A DNA stretch of 64,000 nt, from positions 4,671,001 to 4,735,000 of the forward strand of contig NZ_LT859959.1 in the NCBI RefSeq assembly GCF_900176205.1. The letters are read 5' to 3'. Source of the stretch: Bradyrhizobium sp. ORS 285 (GTDB lineage: Bacteria > Pseudomonadota > Alphaproteobacteria > Rhizobiales > Xanthobacteraceae). Below the pieces are notes generated by a model. The model ran no database searches. It worked only from the letters and a program-made list of their open reading frames with translations, and was not told the origin of the DNA. The position numbers and the translations under genes were made by a program. Below, one piece after another: positions 1 through 19,391 of the stretch (positions are counted from its first letter, which is position 1; each line of letters begins with the position of its first letter).

Positions 1-2
1 TG

Positions 3-1745
3 CTGATCCTCGATCCCACGGCGCCAGCCGGACAACGAATTCGCGAAGCGATCACCCGGCTGTCCTATCCGTTCGGTCTCGCCGTCGGGCCTGCGGGCAA
101 GATCTACGCATCGACCGACACATCGATCTTCCGCATCGACCCGCTGGCAGCGAATCCGAAGTCGACGATCGAGACCATCATCCGCGACCTGCCTGGACGC
201 AGGCTCACGCTGCCGGACGGCACACGCATCACCGAGAGCGCGCATCCGCTGAAGGCCATCGCCTTCGACCGCACCGGCCGGCTGTTCGTGAATGTCGGCT
301 CGCACAGCGACAACTGCCTGTCCTCGGCGCCGGATCGTTGCGCGGCAGCCGAAGGCGCCTCGCCGCTCGCGGCGATCTGGCTGTTCACGCCTCCGGCCGG
401 CGGCGTGTTTCCGGCTCTGGCCTCCGGCGACTCCGATCCGCCGCATCAGGTGTTCGCGCGCGGCCTGCGCAACTCGATGGCGCTCGCGCTGCATCCGCGC
501 TTTCCCGATTCCGGGATGGCCTTCCTGCAGGGCGAGAACGCGCGCGATCTGCAGGACGTCTTCGCGCCCAATGAGGAAATCAACGCGATCGAGCAAGGCC
601 GCCACTATGGCTGGCCCTATTGCTACGATCTCGCCACGCCGAGCCCCGAGTTCAAGCGCGCGCTGCAGTCGGGCGGCCTCAAGGACTTCTGCAAGACGAC
701 CGCGCTCTACAAGCAGCCCTGGTCGCTGCTGCCGCCGCATGGCGCACCGCTCGGCATGCTCTACTACACCGGCGAGCGGTTCGACGATCTCAAGGGCAAG
801 CTGCTGGTCGGCCTGCATGGCTATCGTCCCACGGGCAGCCGCCTGGTCGCCTATGAGGTCGATGAGCGCGGCTTCCCGAAGGTGAGCCCGCCGCCGGTGC
901 GCTATCACGTCAGCTGCGCCGCCGAACCGACCCGCGCCTTCCAGACATCGGCAGGCCCCGCGCCCGCGGCCGCCTTCGACGAGATCATCTCCGGCTGGCA
1001 TCGCGTCAACGGCATCCGCCCGCAAGGCGCGCCGGTCGGCATGACCATCGCCGACGACGGCGCGATCTGGCTGGTCGAGGACAAGAACCAGACCGTGATC
1101 CGCATCGATCGCACCAGCGAGGCCGCGCCGGAGCCGCTGCCCTGCGACACCAGGAGTAATCAGCTGATCGACCAGCTCGTTGCCTTCGTGATGGATGATG
1201 CCGCGAGCCATCAGCGACTGGCGACCGTGCGAAAGAACCTGGTCGAGAAACATTGCAGCGGTTGCCATTCGGAGTTCGGCCTGAGGCCGGGACAATCCGA
1301 GCGCGACAAGGACAGCGCCGTGCTGCGCTTCATGCTGGCGCAGGACGGCTGGATCACTCCGGGCGATCCCGAATCCGGCCGCCTCCGCCAGCGGCTGCGC
1401 GGCCTCGGCGCCGAACGGCAGATGCCGCCCGGTGGCAACCTCATCAAGACGGAACCAGGCTACGCCAAACTGCTTGGTGTCGCCGACGACCTCGTTGCAC
1501 GCATGGTTCCGGGCACACGGATGCGCGTGAAGGCCGGCGGCCCGCCGCATCGCAAGTTCTTCGCTCGGGACGGTCGCGACTGCGGCGACATCCCGTTCGG
1601 CAAGGTCGTGGTCGTGACGGAAAAGTCTGCCGTCAATAAGCCCGGCTTCAGCCGTTTATTCCGGCCCGCCGACACCTACCTCAACGGCACCTGCACGGAC
1701 GACAATGGCTATTACATCCAACAACAATTCCTGGTGCCGCTCTGA
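3..1745 (+). CDS. PQQ-type sugar dehydrogenase fused to cytochrome c (5' partial)
   Basis: The frame is open from the first bases, so the start lies outside the window. The visible part is the C-terminal portion of a soluble glucose/sorbosone dehydrogenase-like beta-propeller (RGLRNSMALALHP, QGRHYGWPYCYD, GAPLGMLYYTG). It is followed by a c-type cytochrome segment with a CSGCH haem-binding motif at about nt 1252-1266 and a candidate distal Met in RQMPPGG. The last roughly 75 residues are a small extra domain of unknown fold. Such proteins usually act in the periplasm, passing electrons from sugar or alcohol oxidation through the fused haem to the respiratory chain. The substrate cannot be read from the sequence. 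Any signal peptide would be in the missing N-terminus. Confidence 0.8.
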   Translation: MILDPTAPAGQRIREAITRLSYPFGLAVGPAGKIYASTDTSIFRIDPLAANPKSTIETIIRDLPGRRLTLPDGTRITESAHPLKAIAFDRTGRLFVNVGSHSDNCLSSAPDRCAAAEGASPLAAIWLFTPPAGGVFPALASGDSDPPHQVFARGLRNSMALALHPRFPDSGMAFLQGENARDLQDVFAPNEEINAIEQGRHYGWPYCYDLATPSPEFKRALQSGGLKDFCKTTALYKQPWSLLPPHGAPLGMLYYTGERFDDLKGKLLVGLHGYRPTGSRLVAYEVDERGFPKVSPPPVRYHVSCAAEPTRAFQTSAGPAPAAAFDEIISGWHRVNGIRPQGAPVGMTIADDGAIWLVEDKNQTVIRIDRTSEAAPEPLPCDTRSNQLIDQLVAFVMDDAASHQRLATVRKNLVEKHCSGCHSEFGLRPGQSERDKDSAVLRFMLAQDGWITPGDPESGRLRQRLRGLGAERQMPPGGNLIKTEPGYAKLLGVADDLVARMVPGTRMRVKAGGPPHRKFFARDGRDCGDIPFGKVVVVTEKSAVNKPGFSRLFRPADTYLNGTCTDDNGYYIQQQFLVPL

Positions 1746-1778
1746 CAGCAAGCTGCATCCGCTCCCGCCGCGGCCCAT

Positions 1779-1892
1779 CCTTCGAGACGCCCGCCTCCGG
1801 CGAGCTCCTCAGGATGAGGGTGGCATGCGCGGTGACACTCGTGCCCCTCATGGTGAGGAGCGCCGCGCGCGGCGCGTCTCGAACCATGAGGC
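1779..1892. repeat. Intergenic palindromic repeat, family A copy 1
   Basis: Two imperfect inverted arms, CCTTCGAGACGC...CTCCTCAGGATGAGG and CCTCATGGTGAGGAGCG...GCGTCTCGAACCATGAGG, can fold on each other. The same arms recur at 26910-27043 and 29661-29799. It is non-coding; the reading frame that crosses it is an accidental upstream extension of the next gene. Confidence 0.85.
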
Positions 1893-1900
1893 CACAGATC

Positions 1901-2039
1901 GTAGGGTGGGCAAAGCGATCGCCGCAGGCGATGCGTGCCCACCGGCCGCGGGCACCGGTGCTCGTGATGATGGGCACGGCGCGCACGAGACCGCATTCGG
2001 ACGCCGGCATTGTCACACCGCGCCTTTGCCCACCCTCCG
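1901..2039. repeat. Intergenic palindromic repeat, family B copy 1
   Basis: It begins GTAGGGTGGGCAAAG and ends CTTTGCCCACCCTCCG, with internal GTGCCCACC and GATGGGCACGG arms. Family B recurs at 30410-30550 and 48507-48643. It sits directly upstream of the signal-peptide codons of the following gene. Confidence 0.85.
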
Positions 2040-2052
2040 CATCTCAGGCTTG

Positions 2053-2958
2053 GTGACGGCCGTCCTCCTCACCCTCACAACCGTCCCTGCCCTCGCTGCA
2101 TCAAAACTATTCGAAAGCACCCAACTCACCCCCTCAGGCGAATACACCTTCGGCATCGAAGGCCCCGCCGTCGACCGCGACGGCAACCTCTTCGTCGTCA
2201 ATCTCGGCAAGCCCGGCACGATCGGCAAGCTCGCCCCGGAAGCCACGGCATCCGAAAAATTCACCGAGTTGCCCGCCAGCAGCATCGGCAATGCGATCCG
2301 CATCGACGCAGCCGGCACGATGTTCATCGCCGATTACAAGAAGCACAACATCTTCGCCATCGCGCCCGGCAGCACCGAGCCGCAACTCGTCTTCCACGCC
2401 GACGAGATGAGCCAGCCCAACGACATCACGCTGACGCGCGACGGCACGATCTATGCGAGCGATCCGGCCTTCAAGGCCCGCAGCGGCCGCATCTGGCGGA
2501 TCGGGAAGGGCCCCGACGGCACGATGCAAGGCGCTGCAATGACCGCGCCCCGCGCCATGGGCACCACCAACGGCATCGACCTCAGCCCCGACGGCCGCAC
2601 GCTCTATGTCGGCGAATCCAACAGCGGCGAGATCTGGTCCTACGCGATCGGGGGCGAGACCCTCACCCAGCCCAAATTGATCGCGAAGTTCGAGCCGAAC
2701 ACGATCGACGGCCTACGCACCGATGCCAGCGGGCGGCTGTTCGTCGCCCACATCCTGAAGGGCAGCATCGCCGTACTCACGCCCGATGGGCGTATCCTCC
2801 GCGAGGTCGCCTTGAAAGCCAAGGAGCCCACCAACCTCGCCTTCGGCGGCAGCGATGGCAAGACGGTGTACGTGACGCAACGCCAAGGCGGCTTCATCGA
2901 GTCGTTTCGGACTGACGTCGAAGGCCGCGAGCATTGCCTGCAGCGTCGTGCGTGTTGA
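2053..2958 (+). CDS. Exported SMP-30/gluconolactonase-like beta-propeller protein
   Basis: About 301 residues. After a hydrophobic export signal ending around VPALAA come repeated propeller blades with GPAVDRDGNLFVV, TRDGTIYASDP, SPDGRTLYVGESNSGEIW and LRTDASGRLFVAH. These are typical of the SMP-30/gluconolactonase/LRE family, whose members hydrolyse lactones or related esters in a metal-dependent manner; the exact substrate is unknown. The start is uncertain. The frame stays open back to nt 1705, but that part lies in the family A and B repeats and inside the preceding gene. TTG at 2050 or GTG at 2053 just before the signal peptide is therefore preferred, although no strong ribosome-binding site is visible. 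It lies beside another propeller enzyme (the dehydrogenase upstream), so lactone hydrolysis after sugar oxidation is a reasonable inference. Confidence 0.7.
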   Translation: MTAVLLTLTTVPALAASKLFESTQLTPSGEYTFGIEGPAVDRDGNLFVVNLGKPGTIGKLAPEATASEKFTELPASSIGNAIRIDAAGTMFIADYKKHNIFAIAPGSTEPQLVFHADEMSQPNDITLTRDGTIYASDPAFKARSGRIWRIGKGPDGTMQGAAMTAPRAMGTTNGIDLSPDGRTLYVGESNSGEIWSYAIGGETLTQPKLIAKFEPNTIDGLRTDASGRLFVAHILKGSIAVLTPDGRILREVALKAKEPTNLAFGGSDGKTVYVTQRQGGFIESFRTDVEGREHCLQRRAC

Positions 2959-2976
2959 CGCTCGCCGCACACTCGC

Positions 2977-3133
2977 TGTCGTCCCGGACAAGCTGCGCCA
3001 ACGCAACAGCGTTGGTGCGGCGCCGATCCCGGACCCATACTCCGCGGCGGGAGTGATGAGCAAGTTGGTGCTATCTGCGTGCCGCCCAACAAACAGTTGG
3101 GGTTATGGGTCCCGGCTTTCGCCGGGACGACAC
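2977..3133. repeat. Intergenic palindromic repeat, family E copy 1
   Basis: It starts TGTCGTCCCGGACAAGC, has an internal GCCGATCCCGGACCCATAC, and ends GGTCCCGGCTTTCGCCGGGACGACA, so the outer arms GTCGTCCCGG and CCGGGACGAC pair. A second copy is at 30571-30725. It lies between convergent genes and could act as a bidirectional terminator or mRNA-stabilising hairpin. Confidence 0.8.
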
Positions 3134-3217
3134 GGGGTGTTGGGCGCGCGCATTTCCAACTCACTGGAAACGGAAAACCCCCGCCTGCGCGAGGGTCTCC
3201 CTGACAACGGCGATCAC

Positions 3218-3589
3218 TTACCGCCCATACACGACGGGCCCGCGTTGAACGATCAGCGGCGGCGGCAGATCGCGTTGCCAGACGCGGCCGTCGTCGAATT
3301 GGATGCGCATGCCGTCAGGCGAATACACCGCGCTTTCGTCGCGCGCATCGATCCACAGCCGGCTGTTCGGCGCATTCCAGTCCGGCCATGCCTGCAGCGA
3401 CTCGCCGGTCTCGGTAGTCAGGTTCACGGAATCGCCGTTCTGGGTCACGAAAGCCGGCGCGCCGATCATGCCGTCGCGGCACATCTGGATGCAGCGGTAG
3501 GTGCCGGTGAGATTGGCGCTCGGCTGAGCGGAGGCGGAGCCGGCGACGCAGGCGCCGACCAGGCCAATGAGGATTGCAACACGCTTCAT
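3218..3589 (-). CDS. Small exported protein of unknown function
   Basis: A 123-residue product with a clear Sec signal peptide, MKRVAILIGLVGACVAGSASAQ, cleaved after the first 22 residues or so. The mature part has a CxxxC pair near its N-terminus, then an acidic and aromatic stretch (SLQAWPDWNAPNSRLWIDARDE) and a basic C-terminus. The ATG at 3589 is chosen because GGAGTG lies 8-9 nt upstream and the signal peptide starts there; a longer in-frame extension to 3652 has no support. I do not recognise a functional family. It lies 110 bp downstream of the transglutaminase operon on the same strand and could be its last gene. Confidence 0.7.
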   Translation of the reverse strand: MKRVAILIGLVGACVAGSASAQPSANLTGTYRCIQMCRDGMIGAPAFVTQNGDSVNLTTETGESLQAWPDWNAPNSRLWIDARDESAVYSPDGMRIQFDDGRVWQRDLPPPLIVQRGPVVYGR

Positions 3590-3699
3590 ATCGATCACTC
3601 CATCGCTCGAAAGGGTCAACCAGCCCCCATTCGGGCCCCTCGGGCGGATCAAGTGCGATGCGGGAAAAATGTTCCCTGGTTCCCCAGCCGGGAACCGCC

Positions 3700-4578
3700 C
3701 TATTCGACCAGCACGACGTCGACGGCGACGCCGAGCTTCTGCTTCGGGGAGCCGACGATGATGCCGTCGATCGGCGACACATCCGAAAAGTCGCGGCCCA
3801 TGCCGAGGATGATGTGATCATTGCCGACCACGAGATCATTGGTCGGATCGAAGCCGACCCATCCGAGGGCGTCGCCGCACCACAGCGACACCCAGGCATG
3901 CGTCGCATCCGCGCCCTGCAGCCGCGGCTGGCCCTCCGGCGGAATGGTCCGCAGATAGCCGCTGACATAGGCCGCCGGCAGACCGAGGCCGCGCAGCCCC
4001 GCGATCATGACATGCGCGAAGTCCTGGCAGACACCGTGGCGATTGTCGAACACCTCGGCGAGCGGCGTCGAAATCACCGTGGCCTTGGGATCGTATTTGA
4101 ACTCCTTGCGGATGCGCCGCATCAGGTCGGCGGCAGCGGCCAAGATGCCGATGCCCGCCGTGAAGCTTTCCGCTGCGTAGTCCGTCACCGGCTTCAGCAC
4201 CGGCACCAGCGCGCTGGCGAAGACGTAGCCGATCGGCGACGACGGGCCAAGGCTGGTGGCCTCGAACGCCGCGTCGCGTACACGCTCCCAGGCCATGCTC
4301 GGCGCATCGCGCTCCGGAGAGCTGCGCGACAGCTTCACCCGGGAACGCGAGTCGATGCGCAAATGGCGGTGCTGGGTATCGATCACGATGCTCTCGGTCA
4401 GCGTGCCGAAGAAATCGCGGCGCGCGGTGCGCTCCGACGGGCGCGGCCGGATATCGACACTGTGCGAGATCAGCTCCTGGCCGTCCCCGCTCAGAGGCTC
4501 CAGGCGGAGCGAGCAGCGCGCGAAACTGACCGCGCTTTCGTACTCGTAGGTGGTGACATGCCGGATGTCGTAGATCAC
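3700..4578 (-). CDS. Transglutaminase-like cysteine peptidase-fold protein
   Basis: 292 residues. The N-terminal ~80 residues are the bacterial transglutaminase-like N-terminal region (IRHVTTYEYESAVSFARCSLRLEP). The core carries a probable catalytic triad Cys184 (NRHGVCQDFAH), His227 (DATHAWVSLW) and Asp244 (VGFDPTND). Family members cleave or form amide bonds, and many bacterial ones are probably proteases or peptide ligases. The start is GTG, overlapping the TGA of the upstream ATP-grasp gene as GTGA, so the two are translationally coupled. It is the third gene of an operon with the DUF2126 and ATP-grasp/alpha-E genes. The substrate is unknown. Confidence 0.85.
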   Translation of the reverse strand: MIYDIRHVTTYEYESAVSFARCSLRLEPLSGDGQELISHSVDIRPRPSERTARRDFFGTLTESIVIDTQHRHLRIDSRSRVKLSRSSPERDAPSMAWERVRDAAFEATSLGPSSPIGYVFASALVPVLKPVTDYAAESFTAGIGILAAAADLMRRIRKEFKYDPKATVISTPLAEVFDNRHGVCQDFAHVMIAGLRGLGLPAAYVSGYLRTIPPEGQPRLQGADATHAWVSLWCGDALGWVGFDPTNDLVVGNDHIILGMGRDFSDVSPIDGIIVGSPKQKLGVAVDVVLVE

Positions 4579-7112
4579 GCCAGGCCCGTGAGCTTTTCCG
4601 GCCGCGTCGCATTCGGCCCGTGCGGGAAGTAATGCTGCCCGATCGCTTCCGACAGATTGAGCAGGTCCTGCTCCAGCCCGAACAGCGTGCGGCCGTCGAG
4701 ATGCGCGGCCTCGGCCGCCGTCAGCCGTGCGCCCAGCGACACCGACAGCCGCTGCGGCCGCTCGATCAACCCGTTCTCCTTCAGGATCGGGAGACCCGCG
4801 ATGTGCTCGTTCAAGGTCTCGATCTGGAAGGCGACCGAGCGCGGATTATAAAGGTCGAGCACGACGAGATCGCGGATCGGCGCCAGCGACGGACCGATCA
4901 GATAGCGCGAACGGTAGGTGATCTGGCAATCGACCAGGGTCAGCAGGACGTCGAGGTCCTCCGGCGTCGCCTCGTCATAGCCGAACTGGCGCGCAAAGCG
5001 CGCGGTGTTGATGGCGCGCTCGGCGCGGCGGCCCATGTCGAGGAAGCGCCAGCCGGCGGCGCGATTCATGTTCTCCTGGGCGAGCCCTGCAAAGCTCGCG
5101 AGCTTCTCCAGAATGAACTCGGCCGTGCTGACGACCGCGTCCTCATCCTCGGCCTCCTGCGCCAGCCGGCCCGGCATCTCGGTGATGACCTGCCAGGCAT
5201 CGGGCGACAGCCGCTCGCGCAGCGAGGTGGCCGTGCGCTGGGCCGACCTCAGCAGCGACAACGCCGAGCCGAACTGCGCCTCGGATTGCAGCGCCTCGGC
5301 AGCCGCCTGCGCGCCCCGCATGCGCGAGGTCTGCGAGATCGCGCCCCATGCCAGCAACAGCCGCTGGATGCGCTCGGCGGTGTTGAGCTGCGCCGGCGAG
5401 TCCTTGCCGGGGTCGCGGTTCTGCGCGGCGAGCACGCGGATCAGCCGCAACGTCGCCTCGGCGCGTTCCAGATAGCGGCCGAGCCAGAACAGATTGTCGG
5501 CGGCACGGCTCGGCAGCACGCCGGCGATACGGCGGATGCGGACATTGTCGGAGCCGGGCAGCAGACTGCGTGTTGCCACCGCCTTGTCGCCGACCACCCA
5601 GACGTCGGCGGCGCGCGCGCCGTCACCCATCGAGATCGCGCGCGCGTCGAGCTTATCGGCGATGCGGCAGAAGCCGCCGGGCATCACGGTCCAGCCACCG
5701 TCCGGCGTCACGGCCGCGAACACGCGCAGCACGAAGGGGCGCGGCGCGATCCGGCCGCCTTCCCACACCGGCGTGGTCGACAGCCGCACCACCTCCTGGC
5801 CGACATAGTCGATGCCGCGCTGGCTGATCGCGGCGCGCAGGCGATCGCGCTCGGCCGCCGAGAGCTCGCTCGCCAGCACCGGGCCGTGGCTGGCGATGCC
5901 CGGCACCGCACGGCCATAGGCGCCCTCGATGGCAAAATCCTCGAGCCGCGACAGCACCTCGTCGCGCGCCGATTTCTGACCGCACCACCAGGTCGCGATA
6001 TGCGGGATCTTGAGATCCTCGCCGAGCACGCGCCGCGCCAGGCTCGGCAGGAAGCCGAGCAGTGCGCGCGCCTCCAGTACGCCGGAGCCCGGCATGTTGG
6101 CGAGCACGACGCCGCCCTTGCGCACGACGTCCATCAGGCCGGCGACGCCGAGCCGCGAGGCGGCGTCGAGCTCCAGCGGATCGAGCGAGTTGGAATCGAG
6201 CCGCCGCAGCAGCACGTCGAGGCGCTTCAGCCCCGCCACGGTGCGGATGTGCACGCGATCGCCGCTGACGGCGAGATCATCGCCCTCCACCAGCAGGAAG
6301 CCGAGATAGCGCGCCAGCGTGGCGTGTTCGAAATAGGTCTCGCTGAAGGTGCCCGGCGTCAGCACGCCGATGCGCGGCTCGTCGCGATCCGCGCTGGCGC
6401 GCAGCGCATCGCGGAAGGTCTCGAAGAACGGCGCGAGCCGCTCGGCATTCATCGACTTGTAGATCGAGGAGAACGCGCGCGACAGCACCAGCCGGTTTTC
6501 GAGCGCATAGCCCATGCCCGATGGCGCCTGCGTGCGATCGCTCAGCACCCACCAGCGGCCGTCGGGCCCGCGTCCGATGTCGGCAGCGTAGATGCTGAGG
6601 AAGCGGCCGCCCGGCGGCTTGATGCCGCAAACCGGGCGCAGATATTCGCTGGAGCCGGCGACGGCGGCTGCGGGCAGCGCGCCGCTCGCGATCAGCCGCC
6701 CTTCGCCGTAGATGTCCTGCAGCACGCGCTCCAGGAGCTCGGCGCGCTGCGCGATGCCCTGGGACAGCTGCGCCCACTCGGCCTCGTCGATCAGCAGCGG
6801 CAGATGGCTCAGCGGCCACGAGCGCTCGGCGTTGTCACCGGGCGATCGATAGGTGACTCCCGCCTCACGCAGGTGCCGGTCGGCCGAGGCAAAGCGGCGC
6901 TCGATGTCGGTCGGCGCCAGTGCGGCAAAGGTATCGGCGAAGCGCGTCCAGACCGGACGCGGCTGGCCGTCAGCCCCGATGAATTCGTCGGGAATGCCGG
7001 GCAGTTGGGCATAATCACGGGCCCATTGGGCGGCGCGGCGCAGCTGAGGGCGCGCCGCCGGCCGACCGGCGGCGGGTGTCGCTCCCTGGTCCTGGCCGCT
7101 CGGGCCGTCCAT
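4575..7112 (-). CDS. Circularly permuted ATP-grasp / alpha-E fusion protein
   Basis: 845 residues. Roughly residues 60-520 match the circularly permuted ATP-grasp family (COG2308-like: SDRTQAPSGMGYALENR, GVLTPGTFSETYFEHA, ATWWCGQKSARD). Residues ~535-840 are a helical alpha-E domain (LPSRAADNLFWLGRYLERAEATLRLIR). In many bacteria these are two separate genes; here they are one polypeptide. ATP-grasp enzymes form amide or peptide bonds through an acyl-phosphate. Iyer, Aravind and colleagues predicted from gene neighbourhoods that this set makes or attaches peptides. The ATG at 7112 has GGAGGAG 7 nt upstream. It lies 32 bp after the DUF2126 gene and overlaps the next gene by 4 bp. The N-terminal ~40 residues are low-complexity and probably disordered. 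Confidence 0.88.
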   Translation of the reverse strand: MDGPSGQDQGATPAAGRPAARPQLRRAAQWARDYAQLPGIPDEFIGADGQPRPVWTRFADTFAALAPTDIERRFASADRHLREAGVTYRSPGDNAERSWPLSHLPLLIDEAEWAQLSQGIAQRAELLERVLQDIYGEGRLIASGALPAAAVAGSSEYLRPVCGIKPPGGRFLSIYAADIGRGPDGRWWVLSDRTQAPSGMGYALENRLVLSRAFSSIYKSMNAERLAPFFETFRDALRASADRDEPRIGVLTPGTFSETYFEHATLARYLGFLLVEGDDLAVSGDRVHIRTVAGLKRLDVLLRRLDSNSLDPLELDAASRLGVAGLMDVVRKGGVVLANMPGSGVLEARALLGFLPSLARRVLGEDLKIPHIATWWCGQKSARDEVLSRLEDFAIEGAYGRAVPGIASHGPVLASELSAAERDRLRAAISQRGIDYVGQEVVRLSTTPVWEGGRIAPRPFVLRVFAAVTPDGGWTVMPGGFCRIADKLDARAISMGDGARAADVWVVGDKAVATRSLLPGSDNVRIRRIAGVLPSRAADNLFWLGRYLERAEATLRLIRVLAAQNRDPGKDSPAQLNTAERIQRLLLAWGAISQTSRMRGAQAAAEALQSEAQFGSALSLLRSAQRTATSLRERLSPDAWQVITEMPGRLAQEAEDEDAVVSTAEFILEKLASFAGLAQENMNRAAGWRFLDMGRRAERAINTARFARQFGYDEATPEDLDVLLTLVDCQITYRSRYLIGPSLAPIRDLVVLDLYNPRSVAFQIETLNEHIAGLPILKENGLIERPQRLSVSLGARLTAAEAAHLDGRTLFGLEQDLLNLSEAIGQHYFPHGPNATRPEKLTGLA

Positions 7113-7144
7113 GCCCTGCTCCTCCGCACAAACTTAGGGCTCAA

Positions 7145-10100
7145 TCAATGCCGGAGCGGCCTGCGCAAGTCGAGGGTCATGGGGAATTCATTTGTGCGTT
7201 CTTCCGGCGGCAGCGCGATTCGTCCTGGAGTGTGGCCGTGATCCTGGAATCGCGCGAGCCGCCGCGCCTCCGCCTCATAGGAGTTGATCGGCTTGGTGTC
7301 GTAGTTGCGGCCGCCGGGATGGGCGACGTGATAGACGCAGCCGCCGAGCGAGCGGCCATTCCAGGTGTCGATCAGGTCGAAGGTCAGCGGCGAATGCACG
7401 GGAATGGTGGGGTGCAGGCCGGACGCCGGCTGCCACGCCTTGAAACGAACCGCCGCGACCGCCTCGGCGGAGCGGCCGGTCGGGGTCATCGGCATTCTCC
7501 TACCATTGCAGGTGATGAGATGGCGGCCCTCGATGAAGCCTTCAGCCTTCACTTGAAGTCGTTCGACCGAGCTATCGACGTAGCGCACGGTGCCGCCGGC
7601 CGCGCCCTCCTCGCCCAGCACGTGCCAGGGCTCCAGCGCCTGCCGCAGTTCGAGCGTCACGCCGCCATGCTGCACGCGCCCGAATGTCGGAAAACGGAAC
7701 TCGAGCTGCGCCTGATACCACTCCGGCGAGAAGTTGTAGCCGGACGAGCGCAGCTCATCCAGCACATCAAGAAAGTCTTCCCAGATGAAGTGCGGCAACA
7801 TGAAGCGGTCGTGCAGCGCCGTGCCCCAGCGCACGAACCTGCCCTCCTGCGGCTCGCGCCACAGCTTGGCGATCAGCGCGCGGATCAGCAGTTGTTGCGC
7901 CAGCGACATGCGCGGATCGGGCGGCATTTCGAGCGCGCGGAATTCGACCAGACCGAGACGCCCGGTCGGTCCTTCCGGCGAATACAGCTTGTCGATGCAG
8001 ATCTCAGAGCGATGCGTGTTGCCGGTGATGTCGACCAGGAGATGCCTGAACAGGCGATCGACCAGCCACAACGGCACGCTCTGCCCCGCAGCGGGCACAT
8101 TGGCGAGCGCGATCTCCAACTCATAGAGACTGTCATGGCGCGCCTCGTCGATGCGCGGCGCCTGGCTGGTCGGCCCGATGAACATGCCGGAGAACAAATA
8201 AGACAGTGCCGGGTGGCGCTGCCAATACAGCACGAGGCTCTTGAGCAGATCCGGCCGGCGCAGGAACGGCGAATCCGGCGGCGACGAACCGCCGACCACG
8301 ACATGATTGCCGCCGCCGGTGCCGGTGTGACGGCCGTCGATCAGGAAGCGGTTGGCGCCGAGCCGCGTCTTCGCCGCGTCCTCATAGAGTCCGAAGGTGA
8401 TGTCGACCGCCTCGCGCCAGCTCTGAGCAGGCTGGATGTTGACCTCGATGACACCAGGATCGGGCGTCACCTTGATGACGTCGATGCGCGGATCGAACGG
8501 CGGCGCATAACCTTCGACATGAACCTTGATCTGCATCGCCTCGGCCGTTGCCTCGACGGTCGCAATCAGCTCCAAATAATCCTCGATGGTCTCCACCGGC
8601 GGCATGAAGACGCAGAGAATGCCGTCGCGGATTTCCACCGACATGGCGGTGCGCACGCCGAGCCCGCCCCAATACTGATACTGAACGTCCTGCTGCGGCT
8701 GCGGCGGCCGATCGAGCGCCTTCAGCGGTGGCACTTGCGGGACGATCACAGGGCGGCCTTGCGTGTAGGCCGGCAGCGGGCCGCGCTGCTCCATCGGGTC
8801 CTGCTCGTGAATATACGGGAAATCTTCCGGCGGAATGTAGACCAGCGAATTGATCGGCAGCCGCAGGCCCAGCGGCGAGTCGCCCGGAATCAGGAACAAC
8901 CGCTTGCGCCGAAGGCCCCAGCGCTCGCTGCGCCAGCGCGCAGGTTTCGCATTCCAGCGCTGGATCGGCAGCACGAAGCCGCGCGGAATATGCAGCCCCT
9001 CGTCGAACACACGCGCCATGCGTGCGCGCTCCTCGGGATCAGCCAGCTTGGAGTCGATTGCGTCGACGTTCTCCGGCAGCGCCGCTTCCTTCTGCAACCA
9101 ATGCGCGGGATCCTCGAACGCCGGCAGCACGTAGTCGGGCTCGAGGCCGAGCGTCTGCGCCGTCGTATCGAGAAATCGCTCGGCATCCGCGATGGTGGCC
9201 ATGCGCGGGCCATCGACGCTGGCGATCAGGTCGGGATTGCGCCAGATCGGCTCGCCATCCTTGCGCCAGTACAATCCGAACGCCCAGCGCGGCAGGCTTT
9301 CGCCCGGATACCACTTGCCCTGGCCATAATGCAGCAGACCGCCGGGCGCGAACCGCGATCGCAGACGCCTGATCAGGCTGTCCGCCAGCCCGCGCTTGGC
9401 CGGGCCGACTGCGGCCGTATTCCACTCGGCGGATTCCATGTCGTCGATCGACACGAAGGTCGGCTCGCCGCCCATCGTCAGCCGGACATCATGAGCGGCG
9501 AGATCTGCATCGACGGCTTCGCCGAGCCGGTCGAGCCTGTCCCAGGATTCGTCGGAGAAAGGTCGCGTGATCCGCGGCGCTTCGCGGATCCGCTTCACGT
9601 TCATCTCGAAGGCGAACTCGACCTCGGCAACTCCGGCGCTGCCGCTGATCGGCGCGGCCGAGTGATAGTGAGGAGTCGCAGCGACCGGAATATGTCCCTC
9701 GCCGGCGAGCATGCCCGACGTCACATCGAAGCCGATCCACCCAGCACCGGGCAGATAGACTTCGGCCCAGGCATGCAGATCGGTGAAATCGCTCTCCACC
9801 TCCACCGGCCCTTCGACCGGATCGATATCAGGACGAAGCTGTATCAAATAGCCGGAGACGAACCGGGCGGCGAGCCCGAGATGACGCAGCGTCTGGATCA
9901 GCAGCCAGGCCGAGTCGCGACAGGAGCCGGCGGCGGAAGACAGCGTCTCCTCCGGCGTCTGAACGCCAGGCTCCATACGAATGATATAACGAATCTTTTT
10001 CTGCAACTGTGCATTGAGATCGACGAGGTAGTTGACCGTGTTGTCGGCCTCGCGCGGGATCGACTTCAAGTAGGCTGCGAACTTTGGACCGGGCTCGATC

Positions 10101-10459
10101 GTTTCGAGATAGGGCGCGAGTTCCGTTTTCAGGCCCTCCGGGTAGGCGAAGGGAAAGCTGTCCGCGTAAGGCTCGACGAAGAAATCGAACGGATTGATCA
10201 CGGTCATCTGTGCCGTGAAATCCACCTCGATTTTCAGTTCGTTCACCTTCTCGGGAAAAACATAGCGCGCGAGCCAGTTACCTTGCGGGTCCTGCTGCCA
10301 GTTCACGAAATGGTTCGGAGGAGTGACCTGGAGCGAATAGCTCAGCACAGGGGTCCTGGTATGTGGTGCCGGGCGCAGACGGATGGTCTGCGGGCCCAAT
10401 CCGACCGGACGATCATACTTATAATGAGTGACGTGATGTAATGCGACGTAGATTGACAC
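7145..10459 (-). CDS. Transglutaminase-like / DUF2126 (GS-like amidoligase) fusion protein
   Basis: 1104 residues. The N-terminal third is transglutaminase-like, with Cys180 ([12 protein letters not shown]), His229 ([11 protein letters not shown]) and Asp245 (WIGFDVTSG) as the likely triad. The remaining ~800 residues are DUF2126, predicted in the literature to be a glutamine-synthetase-like COOH-NH2 ligase; the motif [12 protein letters not shown] near residue 713 is the most conserved stretch visible. The start is GTG, with a weak GGTGAA-type site upstream. It is the first gene of the operon, and the promoter must lie in 10460-10830. Having both a potential amide-bond cutter and an amide-bond maker in one chain suggests peptide processing and ligation are coupled. 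The acceptor molecule is not known. Confidence 0.88.
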
Positions 10460-10837
10460 GTGGGTTCACCGCTCCAGCAACTTTTTTGAGCAGAACATTG
10501 CCGTGCTCAGGGATCAAGCACTAACAAAGGGCAGAGCTGCCTATTGAACCGTCCTGAACCCGAAAGCTGGCGTTTCGGCCACTTTCGATCTCCCTGACCG
10601 CGCTCATGTGTCCGAACTGCACGCACCGGTGGCTTTTGCGGCGAGACCATGACCAGCTCAGGCGTCCTAACAAGAACGAGAGCAGAACAAACAACCCCTC
10701 GCCCCCCTGTTCCATCGGAGTTGTCCACAGGGACGCCCCGAATGCGGTCACGGAAGATTGACCACGCTGCAATAGCAGGGATTAACCCCGAAATGTGAAC
10801 TAACAAGAACTAATAGCGTTGCATTCGCCGCAATCGC
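10460..10837. other. Divergent intergenic region upstream of the amidoligase operon
   Basis: 378 bases with no convincing gene. Short open frames here lack ribosome-binding sites and family resemblance. It is less G+C-rich near 10790-10820 (ATGTGAACTAACAAGAAC), as expected for promoters of the flanking divergent genes. No operator-like palindrome stood out. Confidence 0.5.
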
Positions 10838-10865
10838 TTGATAGCTCGACTACACGTGCTATCTA
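10838..10865 (+). promoter_or_regulatory. Candidate sigma-70 promoter of the small SANT/Myb-like gene
   Basis: TTGATA at 10838-10843 and TATCTA at 10860-10865 are separated by 16 bp. This would start transcription just upstream of the AAAGGAG ribosome-binding site at 10882-10887. Read by eye only. Confidence 0.4.
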
Positions 10866-10894
10866 GGACGCCCATTGCCAAAAGGAGAATCACG

Positions 10895-11092
10895 TTGGCC
10901 AAGACAGCTAAGAAGGCAGCTACCAAGAAGTTGGCGCGCAAACCGTACACCGCCGCCGACATCAAGCTGCTGAAGCAGCACTCGAAGTCGAAGACCCCGG
11001 TTGCCAAGATCGCCAAGGCGATGAAGCGGACGGAAGGCTCGCTGCGTCAGAAGGCCCTGGCGCTCGGCATCGGCCTCGGCCACCAGCGGTAA
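10895..11092 (+). CDS. Small basic SANT/Myb-like putative DNA-binding protein
   Basis: 65 residues from a TTG start at 10895, chosen because AAAGGAG lies 7 nt upstream and the product begins with AKTAKKAATKKLARK. Starts further upstream would run through the promoter region. The lysine-rich N-terminal tail (~18 residues) is followed by YTAADIKLLKQHSKSKTPVA and then RTEGSLRQKALALGI. This is a tri-helical arrangement like SANT/Myb or homeodomain-like modules that choose a target with the third helix. Proteins of this sort occur widely in Bradyrhizobiaceae, without an established role as far as I know. It is transcribed away from the amidoligase operon, so control of that operon is possible but untested. 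Confidence 0.75.
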   Translation: MAKTAKKAATKKLARKPYTAADIKLLKQHSKSKTPVAKIAKAMKRTEGSLRQKALALGIGLGHQR

Positions 11093-11288
11093 TTTATTCG
11101 GCGCCGCTGTCGCGCGCGCGTCAGCGCGGCCAGCCCGGGTCCGTGTGCCGAGGCGGCGCTATCAGCCTGTCATCTGATCTCAGTTGCGATCGAGTCTCAG
11201 CTATGCGGCAGATCCCAGCTGCGATCAGATGCCGGTCGAGAAACAACCGGCAATCCTCTTCCACAGCTGAATAGCTGGCCCCTCCCGA

Positions 11289-12812
11289 CTACATCGTCGC
11301 GCCGAGCACCCAGGGCGCGAACTCGGCCCCGCCGAAATCGAAGCTCTCGCTCTTGGTCGGCTGCCCTGACGCCGTCTTCAGCATCAATTCGAAGATCCGC
11401 TGGCCGCATTCCTGCACGCTCTCCTCGCCATCGAGGATGGTGCCGCAATTGACGTCCATGTCGTCTTCCATCCGCTTGAACATCGGCGTGTTGGTCGCCA
11501 GCTTGATGGATGGCGCCGGCTTGCAGCCGAACACACTGCCACGCCCGGTGGTAAAGCAGACGAGATTGGCCCCGCCGGCCACCTGCCCGGTCGCAGCGAC
11601 GGGATCGTAGCCGGGCGTGTCCATGAACACGAAGCCCTTCTTGGTGACGGCCTCGGCATAATGCAGCACATCCACCAGATTGGTGCTGCCGGCCTTGGCC
11701 ATTGCGCCGAGCGACTTCTCCAGAATGGTGGTGAGGCCGCCGGCCTTGTTGCCCGGGCTCGGATTGGCGTTCATCTCCGCGCCTTCACGCGCTGTATACT
11801 CTTCCCACCAGCGCATCAGCGACACCAGCTTCTCGCCGACTTCGCGACTGACCGCGCGGCGCGTCAGCAGATGCTCGGCACCGTAGGTCTCAGGGGTCTC
11901 CGACAGAATCACCGTGCCACCATGTCGCACCAGCAGATCACTGGCGGCGCCGAGCGCTGGATTGGCCGAGATGCCCGAGTAACCGTCCGAGCCGCCACAT
12001 TGCAGAGCGACCGTCAGTTCGCTTGCGGGGACCGTCTCGCGGCGGACCTTGTTCGCATCCGCAAGCGCTTCCTTGACGAACGCAATGCCCGCCTCGACAG
12101 TCTTGCGGGTGCCGCCGACCTCCTGGATGTCCATGGCACGCAGGCGGCCAGCGAGCTTCTGCTCCTCCATCAGGCCGCCGATCTGATTGGCCTCGCAGCC
12201 GAGGCCGAGCACGATCACCGCAGAGAAGTTCACGTGACGCGCGTAGCCGCCGAGGGTTCGCCGCAACAGCTTTAACGGCTCATCCATCGTCATGCCGCAG
12301 CCGGTCTTGTGCGTCAGGGCGACAACGCCGTCGACATTGGGGTAGTCGGCGAGCGGATTGTCGCCGGTGAACGGATTCCTCTTGAAGACATCGGCAACCA
12401 GGCTCGCGACATGGGCACTGCAGTTCACCGAAGTCAGAAGCCCGATGTAGTTGCGGGTCGCGACGCGGCCGTCGGGGCGGCGAATGCCCTCGAACGTCGC
12501 GGGAAGATCGAAATTCGGCGTCGGCTTGACGTCGACGCCATAGGCGTAGTCCTTGGCGAAATCGCCCATGCCGCAGTTCTGTGTATGAACATGCTGGCCC
12601 GGCGCGATCGGCGCGGTCGCGAAGCCGATGATCTGGCCGTAACGGCGGATCGGCTCACCCTGCGCAATCGGACGCACTGCGACTTTATGCCCCGCCGGAA
12701 TGCGGTCGGCCGTGATCACCCCATCAGCCAGCGCGAGCCCGGGCGGCAGGCTCGCCCGCGCGATCAGGACGCTATCCTCGGGATGAAGCCGGATGACGGG
12801 GGCGGGAGCCAT
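11289..12812 (-). CDS. UxaA/GarD-family sugar-acid dehydratase
   Basis: 507 residues, the usual length of altronate or galactarate dehydratases. The N-terminal ~90 residues form an SAF-like domain ending near HTQNCGMGDFA. The catalytic part shows RPDGRVATRNYIG, TGCGMTMDEP, QCGGSDGYSGISANPA, and near the end CFTTGRGSVFGCKPAPSIK. These iron-dependent enzymes remove water from altronate, galactarate or related sugar acids to give 2-keto-3-deoxy acids. It is the last gene of a minus-strand cluster with an HpcH/HpaI aldolase and an Ldh2-type dehydrogenase, an arrangement like garD-garL. I cannot decide between altronate, galactarate and another aldarate as substrate. The ATG at 12812 has a purine-rich GAGAGAG upstream. 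Confidence 0.85.
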   Translation of the reverse strand: MAPAPVIRLHPEDSVLIARASLPPGLALADGVITADRIPAGHKVAVRPIAQGEPIRRYGQIIGFATAPIAPGQHVHTQNCGMGDFAKDYAYGVDVKPTPNFDLPATFEGIRRPDGRVATRNYIGLLTSVNCSAHVASLVADVFKRNPFTGDNPLADYPNVDGVVALTHKTGCGMTMDEPLKLLRRTLGGYARHVNFSAVIVLGLGCEANQIGGLMEEQKLAGRLRAMDIQEVGGTRKTVEAGIAFVKEALADANKVRRETVPASELTVALQCGGSDGYSGISANPALGAASDLLVRHGGTVILSETPETYGAEHLLTRRAVSREVGEKLVSLMRWWEEYTAREGAEMNANPSPGNKAGGLTTILEKSLGAMAKAGSTNLVDVLHYAEAVTKKGFVFMDTPGYDPVAATGQVAGGANLVCFTTGRGSVFGCKPAPSIKLATNTPMFKRMEDDMDVNCGTILDGEESVQECGQRIFELMLKTASGQPTKSESFDFGGAEFAPWVLGATM

Positions 12813-12867
12813 GGCAGTCTCTCTCGTTTGAATAGATCGCTCGCGTAGACATGCGCTGACAGCGAGT

Positions 12868-12897
12868 GCGAATAGCGGTGGAGTGCCCCCTATTCGC
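12868..12897 (-). terminator. Intercistronic hairpin between aldolase and dehydratase genes
   Basis: GCGAATAG at 12868-12875 pairs perfectly with CTATTCGC at 12890-12897 around a 14-nt G/C-rich loop. It lies in the 107-bp gap between two genes on the same strand. No T-run follows on the minus strand, so partial termination or mRNA protection is more likely than a strong stop. Confidence 0.4.
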
Positions 12898-12919
12898 TAC
12901 TCCCTATCAGCAATTCGCC

Positions 12920-13699
12920 TCAGGCCTTGCCGCCGGAGTCCTTGCGCGTCTGGGCGACCTGCTGGCGGGCATAGACCTGCATCAGGCCGACCTCGTTCGA
13001 CAAGGTCACCAGCTTGAAGCCCATGTTGATGGCCCGCACCGCGCCCTCGGCCCCACTGCAATGGATGCCGGGATTGAGGCCGCGCTTGCCGCACTCCTTC
13101 ACGATCTTCTCATAGATCTTGAGGATCTCCGGCTCGTCGCGATCGAGCTTCGGCACGAGGCCGTAGGAGAAGCCGAGGTCGGAGGGTCCGATATAGACGC
13201 CGTCGATGCCCTCGACGTCGAGGATGGCTTCCATGTTCTCGACCGCCGTCCTGGTCTCCATCATCGGCAGCAGCACGATCTCGTCATTGGCCGTCTTCTG
13301 GTACTCACCCGCGCTGCCATACATGCCGGAGCGGATCGGGCCGTTGGAGCGCACGCCCTTCGGCGGATACTTCGAATAGGACACGAGATTGCGGGCTTCC
13401 TGCGGCGTATTGACCATTGGGCAGATCACGCCATAGGCGCCGCCGTCGAGCACCTTGCCGATGATGCCGGGCTCGTTCCACGGCACGCGCACCATCGGCG
13501 TCACCGGATGAGCGTGCATTGCCTGGAAACACTGCACCATGGACAGATAGTCCTGCACGCCATGCTGCATATCCACGGTGACGCTGTCGAAGCCGCACTG
13601 CGCCACGACCTCCGCGGAAAACCCCGAGGGGATCGCGAGCCAGGCATTCACCACCGTCTTGCCTTCGGCCCAGAGCTGCTTGACTTTATTATTCGCCAC
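12920..13699 (-). CDS. HpcH/HpaI-family class II aldolase
   Basis: 259 residues from a GTG at 13699 (GTG GCG AAT AAT). It is chosen because AAGGGAAGGAAA lies just upstream; in-frame codons further up to 13783 lack such a site. Family features are VTVDMQHG (the catalytic His region), MVRVPWNEP, PMVNTPQEAR, the metal-binding Glu of MMETRTAVEN and the Asp of IGPSDLG. These metal-dependent aldolases release pyruvate from 4-hydroxy-2-oxo acids. Two jobs are plausible: cleaving a keto-deoxy sugar acid made by the neighbouring UxaA-like dehydratase, or replacing HpaI in the hpa pathway 2 kb away, which has no other aldolase here. The usual GEH motif of HpaI/GarL reads MQH in this protein. Confidence 0.82.
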   Translation of the reverse strand: MANNKVKQLWAEGKTVVNAWLAIPSGFSAEVVAQCGFDSVTVDMQHGVQDYLSMVQCFQAMHAHPVTPMVRVPWNEPGIIGKVLDGGAYGVICPMVNTPQEARNLVSYSKYPPKGVRSNGPIRSGMYGSAGEYQKTANDEIVLLPMMETRTAVENMEAILDVEGIDGVYIGPSDLGFSYGLVPKLDRDEPEILKIYEKIVKECGKRGLNPGIHCSGAEGAVRAINMGFKLVTLSNEVGLMQVYARQQVAQTRKDSGGKA

Positions 13700-13819
13700 G
13701 ACTGCGTTTCCTTCCCTTGTTGTTCGATTGACGTTGTTGAACTCGTTCTCGCCGATGCGCGAGTACGATGCAATCCTGCTCACCCCGGATACTTCGCGCC
13801 ACCGGCAGTCACACTGACA

Positions 13820-14905
13820 TCACGATGTCGCCCGCTGAATGCTCGCTTCGCTGACACCCACTTCGCGGGCCGTGCTCACGATCGCTGCCCAGGTATCATC
13901 CGGCAACGGCACGCCATTGGCGGTCCGATCAGCCCGCGTCTTGCGCTCGACGTCGCCCGGCACCAGCACCTGATCAACGCCCGCCACGGGCTTCGTCCCG
14001 CGGATGAAATCCGTATAGCGGGTGATCTCGCCGTCGAAGAAGCTGGCAGGATCGACCACCTTCGGGTCGATGTAGATCGCCAGCATGCCATTGGCGAAGC
14101 GCCGGCCGGACGAGGTCGCGCCTGTGCCGGTCAGCGCACCGCCAAGCAATTCGCAAATGAAGGCGAGGCCCGAGCCCTTGTGCTCGCCGAAGGCGCGGAT
14201 CGCTCCCGTTCCCTTGGTGTGGTCGCGCGGACCTTCCGCCTCGTAGGGCCCGTAAAGCACGGAGGGATCCTCGCTCAGCGTCCCGTCGGCATCGATCAGC
14301 GCACCCTTGGGCAGCTTCTTGCCGCCACGGCTCGCCACCAGCACCTTGCCTTCGGCAACGATGGAAGTCGCGAAATCGAGCACGATCGGATCCTGGCCCT
14401 GCCGGGGGATGCCGACACAATAAGGCGCAGTGGAGAACCGCTTCTCGACGCCGCCATAGGGCGCCACCAGCAGCGAGCCGGCAGCGGTGACGAAATGGAT
14501 CGAGACGAGCCCTTCGGCGGCGGCCATTTCTGCCCAGTCCCCGACGCGACCGAGATGGCCGGAATTCCGCAGCGCCAGCGCGGCCAGGCCGCTCCTCTTG
14601 CAGCGCTCGATGCCGATCTTCACCGCCTGCGGTGTCACCGTCTGGCCGTAGCCGAATTTGCCATCGACCACCACCAGCGAAGGCGTATCCACCACGATGT
14701 CAGCGGTCTGATTGGGAACGATCGAGCCCATCTTCTGCCAGCGGATGTAGACGGGGACGCGGATCACGCCATGGCTGTCATGCCCGGTGAGATTCGCCGT
14801 TGTGAGGTAGGTGGCAATCCGGCGCGCCTCCTCCGGCGAGGAGTGAGCATGTTCGAAGACGTCGGCGACGAAATCGATGAGGCGCGCAACCTTGATTGTG
14901 ACCAT
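13820..14905 (-). CDS. Ldh2-family malate/lactate dehydrogenase-like oxidoreductase
   Basis: 361 residues, the normal size for the type-2 malate/L-lactate dehydrogenase family, which has its own NAD(P) fold rather than a classical Rossmann domain. Visible features are LTGHDSHGVIRVPVY with the catalytic His, GYGQTVTPQAVK, LRNSGHLGRVGDWAEMAA, APYGG and AFGEHKGSGLAFI. Members reduce or oxidise 2-oxo/2-hydroxy acids, including ureidoglycolate, sulfolactate and delta-1-piperideine-2-carboxylate, so the substrate cannot be assigned by sequence alone. It is the first gene of the aldolase-dehydratase cluster (120 bp before the aldolase start) and probably handles an aldehyde or oxo-acid product of that route. 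Confidence 0.85.
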   Translation of the reverse strand: MVTIKVARLIDFVADVFEHAHSSPEEARRIATYLTTANLTGHDSHGVIRVPVYIRWQKMGSIVPNQTADIVVDTPSLVVVDGKFGYGQTVTPQAVKIGIERCKRSGLAALALRNSGHLGRVGDWAEMAAAEGLVSIHFVTAAGSLLVAPYGGVEKRFSTAPYCVGIPRQGQDPIVLDFATSIVAEGKVLVASRGGKKLPKGALIDADGTLSEDPSVLYGPYEAEGPRDHTKGTGAIRAFGEHKGSGLAFICELLGGALTGTGATSSGRRFANGMLAIYIDPKVVDPASFFDGEITRYTDFIRGTKPVAGVDQVLVPGDVERKTRADRTANGVPLPDDTWAAIVSTAREVGVSEASIQRATS

Positions 14906-15081
14906 GACAACTCGCGGGTTCGATCAGCATGCAAAGCAGAGTTAGCATGGATTGCCATGCCTGCGACGCACGCCCTCTCCGCTCGACTGCATCGCTTCTT
15001 ATCAAACTGTTGAAGTGACTGCCAAGCACGAGGACTGTTCGGGGGCGAGATTGCGCGATGCTTGCTTCCTTCGGCACGGCG

Positions 15082-15597
15082 TCAGTCATCGCCCCCAGCA
15101 TCGGTCTCGCCACCGCCGCCGATGCTCTGCTCGAGTTCGCCCAGCATTTTGTGCAGCGCGGCAAGCTTGCGTGCGCCATAGCGCCGGGCAATCGTGGCGT
15201 AGATCGCCTCGGAATTCGGCGCAACCTGCGCAATCAGTTTCAAGCCCTTGGTCGAAATCGACAACACGCCTCTCCGCATGTCGCGCGCATCCACCTCGCG
15301 CTGAACGAGGCCACGCGCCTCCAGATCGCGCAGAATGCGCGACAGGCTGGGACCGAGCAGGAAGGCGACGCGCGCCAGCTCCGTCACCTCGATCGCATCG
15401 ACAGCCGCCAGCGCACGCAGGATGCGCCATTGCTGCTCCGTCAATCCATGCGCGCGTAGATTCGGCCGGAACTGCCGCATGACCGCCTCGCGCGCCCGCA
15501 GCAGCGCCATCGGGAGCGATTGCGAGAAGTCGCGCATCGGCACCTTGCGGGCCTCCTTGGCCGGCGGCCTTACGCCCCTTGGCTTGCTCTCGCTCAT
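15082..15597 (-). CDS. hpaR: HpaR, MarR-family repressor of homoprotocatechuate degradation
   Basis: 171 residues. Residues ~25-155 form a winged helix-turn-helix MarR domain (SLPMALLRAREAVMRQFRP, GLTEQQWRILRAL, LARVAFLLGPSLSRILRDLE, RRGVLSISTKG). The MRDFSQSLPMALLRARE opening is characteristic of HpaR, which represses the hpa meta-cleavage operon until an aromatic acid binds. It is divergent from hpaH, and a perfect 12-bp palindrome lies in the shared 115-bp promoter region. The basic N-terminal ~20 residues and the glycine/aspartate-rich tail are probably disordered. Confidence 0.88.
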   Translation of the reverse strand: MSESKPRGVRPPAKEARKVPMRDFSQSLPMALLRAREAVMRQFRPNLRAHGLTEQQWRILRALAAVDAIEVTELARVAFLLGPSLSRILRDLEARGLVQREVDARDMRRGVLSISTKGLKLIAQVAPNSEAIYATIARRYGARKLAALHKMLGELEQSIGGGGETDAGGDD

Positions 15598-15647
15598 CTC
15601 ACGATCCCACCGCCCGTTATTTGCACTGCAACAACAACCGTTTCGAT

Positions 15648-15676
15648 TTGCCGGCCAAAACTTAACATGTTAATCA
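15648..15676 (+). promoter_or_regulatory. hpa operon promoter with HpaR-type operator
   Basis: TTGCCG (15648-15653) and TAATCA (15671-15676) are separated by 17 bp, a plausible sigma-70 promoter for hpaH. The perfect palindrome TTAACATGTTAA at 15662-15673 overlaps the spacer and the -10 box, where a MarR repressor would block RNA polymerase. hpaR reads away from it on the other strand, so autoregulation is also likely. Confidence 0.6.
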
Positions 15677-15712
15677 ACTGCCGCCATCTGTTTCCTGCAG
15701 GGAATACGCCTC

Positions 15713-16519
15713 ATGCCGCTGTCGAGCGACCAGATTCACAGCTGCGCGCTGCGCCTTGATCAGGCCGAGAAGTCTCGCCGCCAGATTCGTCAGCTGTCGC
15801 AGGAGCATCCGGACATCACGATTGCCGATGCCTATGCGATCCAGAAGGCCTGGATCGACATCAAGGTGGCCGAGGGACGCATCATCAAGGGACACAAGAT
15901 CGGGCTGACGTCGAAGGCGATGCAGAGCGCGCTTGCTATCGACGAGCCGGATTCCGGCGTGCTGCTGGACGACATGTTCTTCGCAGACGGCGGGATCGTG
16001 CCGTCCGACCGGTTCATCGCCACGCGGATCGAGGCCGAGCTGGCCTTCGTCATGAAGCATCGTCTCGCAGGGCCGGACTGCACGCTGTTCGACGTACTCA
16101 ACGCGACCGACTTCGTCGTGCCAGCGCTGGAAATTCTCGACACCAGGATCGAGCGCGTCGATCCCCAGACCAAGGCAACGCGCAAGATCTTCGATACGAT
16201 CGCGGACAACGCTGCCAATGCGGGTATCGTGGTCGGCGGCCGGCCATTGCGACCTGTTGATACCGATCTGCGCTGGGTCGGCGCCCTCTGCTATAAGAAC
16301 GGCCAGCTCGAAGAGACCGGGCTGGCTGCCGGCGTGTTGAACAATCCCGCCACCGCCGTGGCGTGGCTCGCCAACAAGATCGCCGCGCATGGGCTAGCCT
16401 TGGAGCCAGGCCAGGTCGTCCTCGCGGGCTCCTTCATTCGGCCGATCGAGGCGCGCAAGGGCGATACGATCCAAGCCGACTACGGTCCCTATGGGACGGT
16501 GAGCTGTTACTTCGCCTGA
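15713..16519 (+). CDS. hpaH: HpaH, 2-oxo-hept-4-ene-1,7-dioate hydratase
   Basis: 268 residues, normal for HpaH. It belongs to the hydratase/decarboxylase branch of the FAH superfamily (MhpD/HpaH/DmpE). Visible motifs are ITIADAYAIQKAWID, IKGHKIGLTSKAMQ, the metal-binding EAELAFV, and LAGSFIRPIEARKGDTI. HpaH adds water to 2-oxo-hept-4-ene-1,7-dioate, giving 4-hydroxy-2-oxo-heptane-1,7-dioate for aldol cleavage. The ATG at 15713 has AGGGA 9 nt upstream. It is the first gene of a five-gene plus-strand operon and is controlled by the divergent hpaR region. Confidence 0.92.
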   Translation: MPLSSDQIHSCALRLDQAEKSRRQIRQLSQEHPDITIADAYAIQKAWIDIKVAEGRIIKGHKIGLTSKAMQSALAIDEPDSGVLLDDMFFADGGIVPSDRFIATRIEAELAFVMKHRLAGPDCTLFDVLNATDFVVPALEILDTRIERVDPQTKATRKIFDTIADNAANAGIVVGGRPLRPVDTDLRWVGALCYKNGQLEETGLAAGVLNNPATAVAWLANKIAAHGLALEPGQVVLAGSFIRPIEARKGDTIQADYGPYGTVSCYFA

Positions 16520-16543
16520 CGCCTGGACCGGAGCGATTGCACC

Positions 16544-16936: not shown

Positions 16937-16951
16937 AAGCGGAGGCATCCC

Positions 16952-18490: not shown

Positions 18491-18502
18491 GGAGAAATGC
18501 CC

Positions 18503-19372: not shown

Positions 19373-19391
19373 TAAGAAACGGAAACTGATC

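Follow-up and report, generated by a model that had tools for sequence, protein, structure and literature searches.

A transglutaminase-DUF2126 operon of Bradyrhizobium sp. ORS 285 as a candidate amide-bond ligase with a probably inactive ATP-grasp-alpha-E protein

A three-gene operon on the minus strand of a 64,000-nt stretch of Bradyrhizobium sp. ORS 285 (the whole stretch is called the window; its first 20 kb were used to compare loci) encodes, in this order, a transglutaminase (TG)-DUF2126 fusion, an ATP-grasp-alpha-E fusion, and a second TG-like protein. On balance, we lean toward reading this operon as a system for ATP-dependent amide-bond ligation that includes amidases of its own, in which the ATP-grasp-alpha-E protein would be a dead paralog acting as a scaffold or regulatory subunit. 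DUF2126, to judge from its predicted glutamine-synthetase fold and conserved residues, would activate a carboxylate, probably glutamyl, as an acyl phosphate and join it to an amine, and the TG domain fused to DUF2126 and the second TG protein, in both of which a catalytic triad was observed, may hydrolyze or transfer that amide. Ligation would probably be done by the glutamine-synthetase-like domain, perhaps with an intact ATP-grasp copy at a second locus. An operon around DUF2126 (PF09899, "Putative amidoligase"), with the same domains as in the window, was reportedly predicted by Iyer et al. in 2009; it has been a predicted peptide-ligation system since then, and no reported product was found in the literature searched.

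The ATP-grasp-alpha-E protein (4575..7112, minus strand; 845 residues, ATG start) matched PF14403 (466 bits) and PF04168 (228 bits) well above the cut-offs, with a circularly permuted ATP-grasp domain at residues 105 to 485 (5658..6800) and an alpha-E domain at residues 533 to 829 (4626..5516). Residues invariant in stand-alone paralogs were lost from the fused ATP-grasp: the 845-residue protein has S191, R193, Q195, E396, and A502 (the last just past the Pfam match) where the stand-alone proteins have E, N, R, K, and K. The Glu-x-Asn motif of the stand-alone proteins reads S191-D192-R193 in the window; its Asn was found in 0/102 and its Glu in 2/102 fused proteins, both conserved lysines were lost in the window's family, and SGGYG, the glycine-rich loop of the stand-alone family, was absent from 102/102. 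Arg or His also replaced the Asn in all 7 readable proteins of 11 fused proteins occurring without DUF2126, the position being unlocated in L236, L239, L244, and L256. The alpha-E domain of the 845-residue protein, in turn, retains both ER motifs (E549-R550 and E698-R699). With these invariant residues gone, the fused ATP-grasp probably does not work as a ligase; sequence strongly supports a dead site and also shows continued selection. The protein may be a conserved, non-ligase paralog of the ATP-grasp/alpha-E pair of the Anbu locus described below, and its role would be to present the intact alpha-E domain. The peptide-ligation activity predicted in an earlier, sequence-only reading of this DNA is in line with the Pfam label of DUF2126 as a putative amidoligase but is improbable for the fused ATP-grasp. 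E184 and N186 are putative metal ligands. In an hhalign comparison, the GspS family, for whose E. coli member we take the relevant residues to be R316, D318, E330, and N332, was aligned with the stand-alone ATP-grasp such that the Glu-x-Asn motifs were paired, at a nonsignificant E of 0.24. YgiC and YjfC were near fold relatives.

The TG-DUF2126 protein (7145..10459, minus strand; 1,104 residues, GTG start) comprises a TG-like domain (residues ~1 to 290; 9590..10459) and a glutamine-synthetase-like DUF2126 region (residues ~300 to 1104; 7145..9562). That it is a TG-DUF2126 fusion of this length, as first read from the sequence, agrees with its Pfam matches to PF08379 and PF01841 (residues 6 to 83 and 133 to 245) and to PF09899 (residues 278 to 1099; 1,346 bits, far over the cut-off). 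The second TG-like protein (3700..4578, minus strand; 292 residues, GTG start) matched PF08379 and PF01841, well above cut-offs. Cys-His-Asp triads had been noted in both TG-like domains and were found to be nearly invariant, C180/H229/D245 of the fusion being present in 139/140 homologs and C184/H227/D244 of the separate protein in 105/105; by these triads, both domains would be cysteine enzymes that presumably hydrolyze or transfer an amide. In DUF2126, E332, E672, N674, H719, E839, and R841, the last two being of glutamine-synthetase type, were invariant in 64/64 sequences, and a predicted model showed a glutamine-synthetase fold (mean predicted local distance difference test score, 80.5), making DUF2126 itself the likely ligase. 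Open reading frame (ORF) coordinates bore out the coupling of the three genes on one strand, with a 32-bp gap followed by a 4-bp GTGA overlap. The genome (7.80 Mb, single contig) has one PF09899 match, and the named close homologs of the TG-DUF2126 protein were from Bradyrhizobium.

The genome also holds a full Anbu operon at a distance of 2.1 Mb from that of the window (G000:C1, ~2.555 to 2.560 Mb; L004:6747-11456), with four minus-strand genes encoding a stand-alone ATP-grasp (499 residues), an alpha-E protein (365 residues), a TG (282 residues), and Anbu (252 residues). The Anbu call (L004:6747-7505) is firm, with E values of 3e-83 to the designed Anbu 5loy and 5e-74 to Anbu 5nyj; a whole-genome search with PF00227, which matches the Anbu protein itself at an E of 1.2e-5, overlooked this gene and picked up nothing but an HslV-like ORF. 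The sequence-only reading was right that no proteasome-like NTN peptidase is nearby, no Anbu gene being present in window 1-20000, and it passed over both the full Anbu operon elsewhere in the genome and what the model suggests is the likely ligase, DUF2126. The ATP-grasp, alpha-E, and TG families are common to the two sets of genes, which differ in that the window set has DUF2126, no Anbu, and an ATP-grasp that is joined to alpha-E and has lost catalytic residues.

PF09899 was found in 34/36 genomes of the genus, 6/24 genomes of other families of the order, and 84/299 genomes drawn from the phylum. Gene neighborhoods were compared at 141 loci, comprising the window, 60 loci picked nonrandomly from the genus, order, and phylum matches, and 80 named loci (the best 80 of 592 that were confirmed). 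Among the record titles of the named loci are planctomycetes, Verrucomicrobia, Nitrospirota, a Bryobacterales bacterium, and a Flexithrix. DUF2126 was full length in 140/141, and in 105 loci it was flanked on each side by 5 kb or more. An ATP-grasp was called fused-type when it matched the window's domain better than that of L004, true ORF fusions being counted separately. Fused-type ATP-grasp was present in 91/105 loci, codirectional with and directly downstream of DUF2126 in 78/105, and followed by a TG in 91/91; an actual ATP-grasp-alpha-E ORF fusion lay near DUF2126 in 90/105, and L104, L105, and L122 had a triple ATP-grasp-alpha-E-TG fusion. All 15 loci of the window's own family carried the fused-type set. 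The three genes are co-conserved across loci, lack of which had been named beforehand as grounds for refutation, and the fusion of ATP-grasp to alpha-E, correctly read from the sequence, is not new: it is the usual form of the operon, of which the window is an ordinary member. Stand-alone ATP-grasp was found in 48/105 loci, 38 of which also carry the fused type, Anbu in 16/105, and Peptidase_Mx in 12. Neither kind of ATP-grasp was within reach of DUF2126 in 4/105 loci (L103, L159, L188, and L189); at L103:7119-10496, DUF2126 is full length, the fetched stretch has neither type, and two alpha-E matches lie in other parts of its genome (G271). Among unusual forms, the exception to full length, L115, has a divergent DUF2126 (33 to 35% identity) split into 300- and 713-residue parts, distant from the usual partners, and that of L116 has an open frame of ~1,500 residues, several hundred over the usual length. 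A family of 410- to 445-residue proteins, with members in 10 loci and no Pfam match at the cut-off among members scanned, was found directly upstream of DUF2126 (L117:5650-6987, L154:2692-4002, L161:6656-7909, L162:8767-9999, and L165:8463-9788).

The number of alpha-E genes per genome bears on the relation between the fused and stand-alone proteins. At least two alpha-E matches, counted by eye, were present in 76/84 DUF2126-positive genomes versus 11/72 DUF2126-negative genomes with alpha-E. All of these 11 had a fused-type protein, which a stand-alone ATP-grasp accompanied in every genome except G229, whose assembly is 74% complete (10/11). Eight DUF2126-positive genomes had one alpha-E match; G118, G130, G145, G178, G292, and G347 matched the stand-alone protein only (in G178, a contig end cuts the sequence beside DUF2126), and G166 and G233 had an additional fused-type fragment at a contig end. 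This distribution suggests that the fused gene may require its stand-alone counterpart but not DUF2126.

Peptidase_Mx appeared as a further partner. A protein with Zn_ribbon_DZR_6 and Peptidase_Mx (PF10005 and PF15887) was within reach of DUF2126 in 12/140 loci. In five stretches chosen for nearby Mx and alpha-E, Mx adjoined the stand-alone ATP-grasp and alpha-E in 5/5, and Anbu was also present in three (L219, L220, and L221); the L218 stretch is the same place as L128. Mx was found in 46/299 genomes (three of them, G280, G297, and G367, by partial or weak matches only), of which 45 have alpha-E (156/299 overall) and 34 have DUF2126; the co-occurrence P values are uncorrected for shared ancestry. 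The genome of the window has a single Mx gene (L216:6478-7599) with no operon partners beside it. A zincin fold was predicted for this family, then DUF2248, in the available part of a 2013 survey (PMC3650047). No report of an association of Peptidase_Mx with ATP-grasp/alpha-E sets was found in a literature search.

Several observations weigh against the view of DUF2126 as ligase and the fused ATP-grasp as its dead partner. The glutamine-synthetase fold of DUF2126 was assigned from a predicted model, Foldseek gave an E of only 0.0099, and the hhalign sequence-profile match to glutamine synthetase was not significant (E of 0.063). Outside the window's family, Asp occupies the E184 column in 7/85 fused proteins, and K392 and K492 are kept in 46/85 and 63/85, so that these proteins might still bind nucleotide; within the family, loop glycines still align (G398 in 12/17 and G401 in 16/17), though the motif is gone. 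A fused-type gene without stand-alone ATP-grasp in reach was seen at 53/105 loci, and specific interactions were not seen between coexpressed proteins of the Yersinia Anbu operon in the available part of PMC6376114. The same paper reports that the Yersinia ATP-grasp, of the Anbu type, releases phosphate from ATP.

We weighed three other explanations. An accessory role of the operon within the Anbu system during nitrogen-limited protein turnover, with proteins or peptides tagged or trimmed for degradation by Anbu or Peptidase_Mx, is unlikely, although DUF2126, stand-alone ATP-grasp/alpha-E, Anbu, and Peptidase_Mx do colocate at some loci, alpha-E is present in 84/84 DUF2126 genomes of the phylum sample, and, in the available part of PMC8050072, Pseudomonas putida PP_2685 and PP_2688 (the Anbu and ATP-grasp genes) were up by 4.44 and 3.99 log2 on nitrate relative to ammonium. 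Against it, Anbu was out of reach at 116/140 loci, a fused-type gene had no stand-alone ATP-grasp in reach at 65/140, an RpoN-type site was missing upstream of the window operon, and peptidase activity of Anbu went undetected in the available part of PMC6376114. Somewhat less probable still is that all three ligase-type parts work, the fused ATP-grasp being active with a remodeled metal site and the operon building a small peptide; nucleotide binding outside the window's family would fit such a scheme, which has to contend with the loss of Asn from 102/102 and Glu from 100/102 fused proteins, of both lysines from the window's family, and of SGGYG throughout. The near-invariant triads would suit a cysteine protease complex with the two TG domains as sole enzymes and DUF2126 and ATP-grasp-alpha-E as noncatalytic scaffolds, but the retention of six DUF2126 residues in 64/64 sequences would be unusual for a scaffold, and we consider this explanation very improbable.

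The preferred reading, of a DUF2126 ligase with TG amidases and a dead ATP-grasp-alpha-E subunit, also sets the operon apart from known systems. In glutathionylspermidine synthetase/amidase and YgiC/YjfC, the comparison differs in that the predicted ligase of the window has a glutamine-synthetase fold with a TG-like domain and its ATP-grasp looks dead; by analogy with synthetase/amidase pairs, the TGs may cut or transfer the amide that the ligase makes. DUF2126 differs from glutamine synthetase and GmaS in its fusion to a TG, its much greater length, and the nonsignificant sequence-profile match. YgiC and YjfC are described as peptidylpolyamine synthetases in the available part of PMC12568646, and polyamines are therefore sensible candidate amines. 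More tentatively, and with clear doubt on our part, the sets might form an enzyme/pseudoenzyme system across phyla, in which a glutamine-synthetase-fold ligase (the writer) and a cysteine amidase (the eraser) sharing one chain would be controlled by a dedicated dead ATP-grasp-alpha-E protein that needs the living ATP-grasp/alpha-E pair from the Anbu system; Anbu and Peptidase_Mx would be interchangeable outputs acting on one and the same modified substrate. The word DUF2126 occurs in no paper of the literature searched, searches on Peptidase_Mx, inactive ATP-grasp with Anbu, and Rv2566-Rv2569c found nothing on function, and no mention of a dead ATP-grasp, a Peptidase_Mx partner, or a paired intact paralog was found in the literature searched (Iyer et al. 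2009 being outside that search). If the fused protein is indeed a dead paralog, assaying it as a ligase would yield a false negative. The comparison singles out TG-DUF2126 as the enzyme to assay, the stand-alone ATP-grasp/alpha-E as the likely partner, and Peptidase_Mx as an extra peptidase, and with these three pointers the old question becomes directly testable.

Two genes flanking the operon are passengers. A 123-residue ORF downstream (3218..3589, minus strand; ATG at 3589) has, by eye, the signal-peptide-like N terminus that had been read in it, and no Pfam match at an E of 1; its proposed companionship with the operon did not hold. Homologs occur in 18/60 genus genomes, the window's own included, and among the 140 loci the protein adjoins DUF2126 in the window only (1/105); in 8 other genomes with both, the two are on different contigs in 4 and >1 Mb apart in 4. 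We rejected it as a substrate of the operon, as it was never near DUF2126 outside the window in the loci and genomes compared. The divergent, lysine-rich 84-residue ORF (10838..11092, plus strand) had been labeled SANT/Myb-like; it has no Pfam match even at an E of 1 and likewise adjoins DUF2126 in the window only among 140 loci, and a SANT/Myb regulator was rejected (1/105 of the DUF2126 neighborhoods examined). RpoN/NtrC control of the window operon was also rejected, with zero upstream sites at up to 2 mismatches; RpoN-type matches in the whole window were fewer than chance (21 versus a mean of 26.8), and the start of the L004 ATP-grasp gene has a 1-mismatch site nearby, one of 5 matches versus 8.5 expected. 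A promoter and terminator scan found 1 promoter and 3 terminators versus 1.1 and 4.7 in shuffled sequences. Antisense plus-strand ORFs opposite the operon (4620-7241, 873 residues; 7076-10441, 1,121 residues) are probably high-G+C artifacts. Elsewhere in the window, a 950-residue ORF (16568-19420, minus strand) has zero Pfam matches at an E of 1, and an ORF at 288-1745 (plus strand) matches the glucose/sorbosone dehydrogenase profile over positions 170 to 276 of 332 only.
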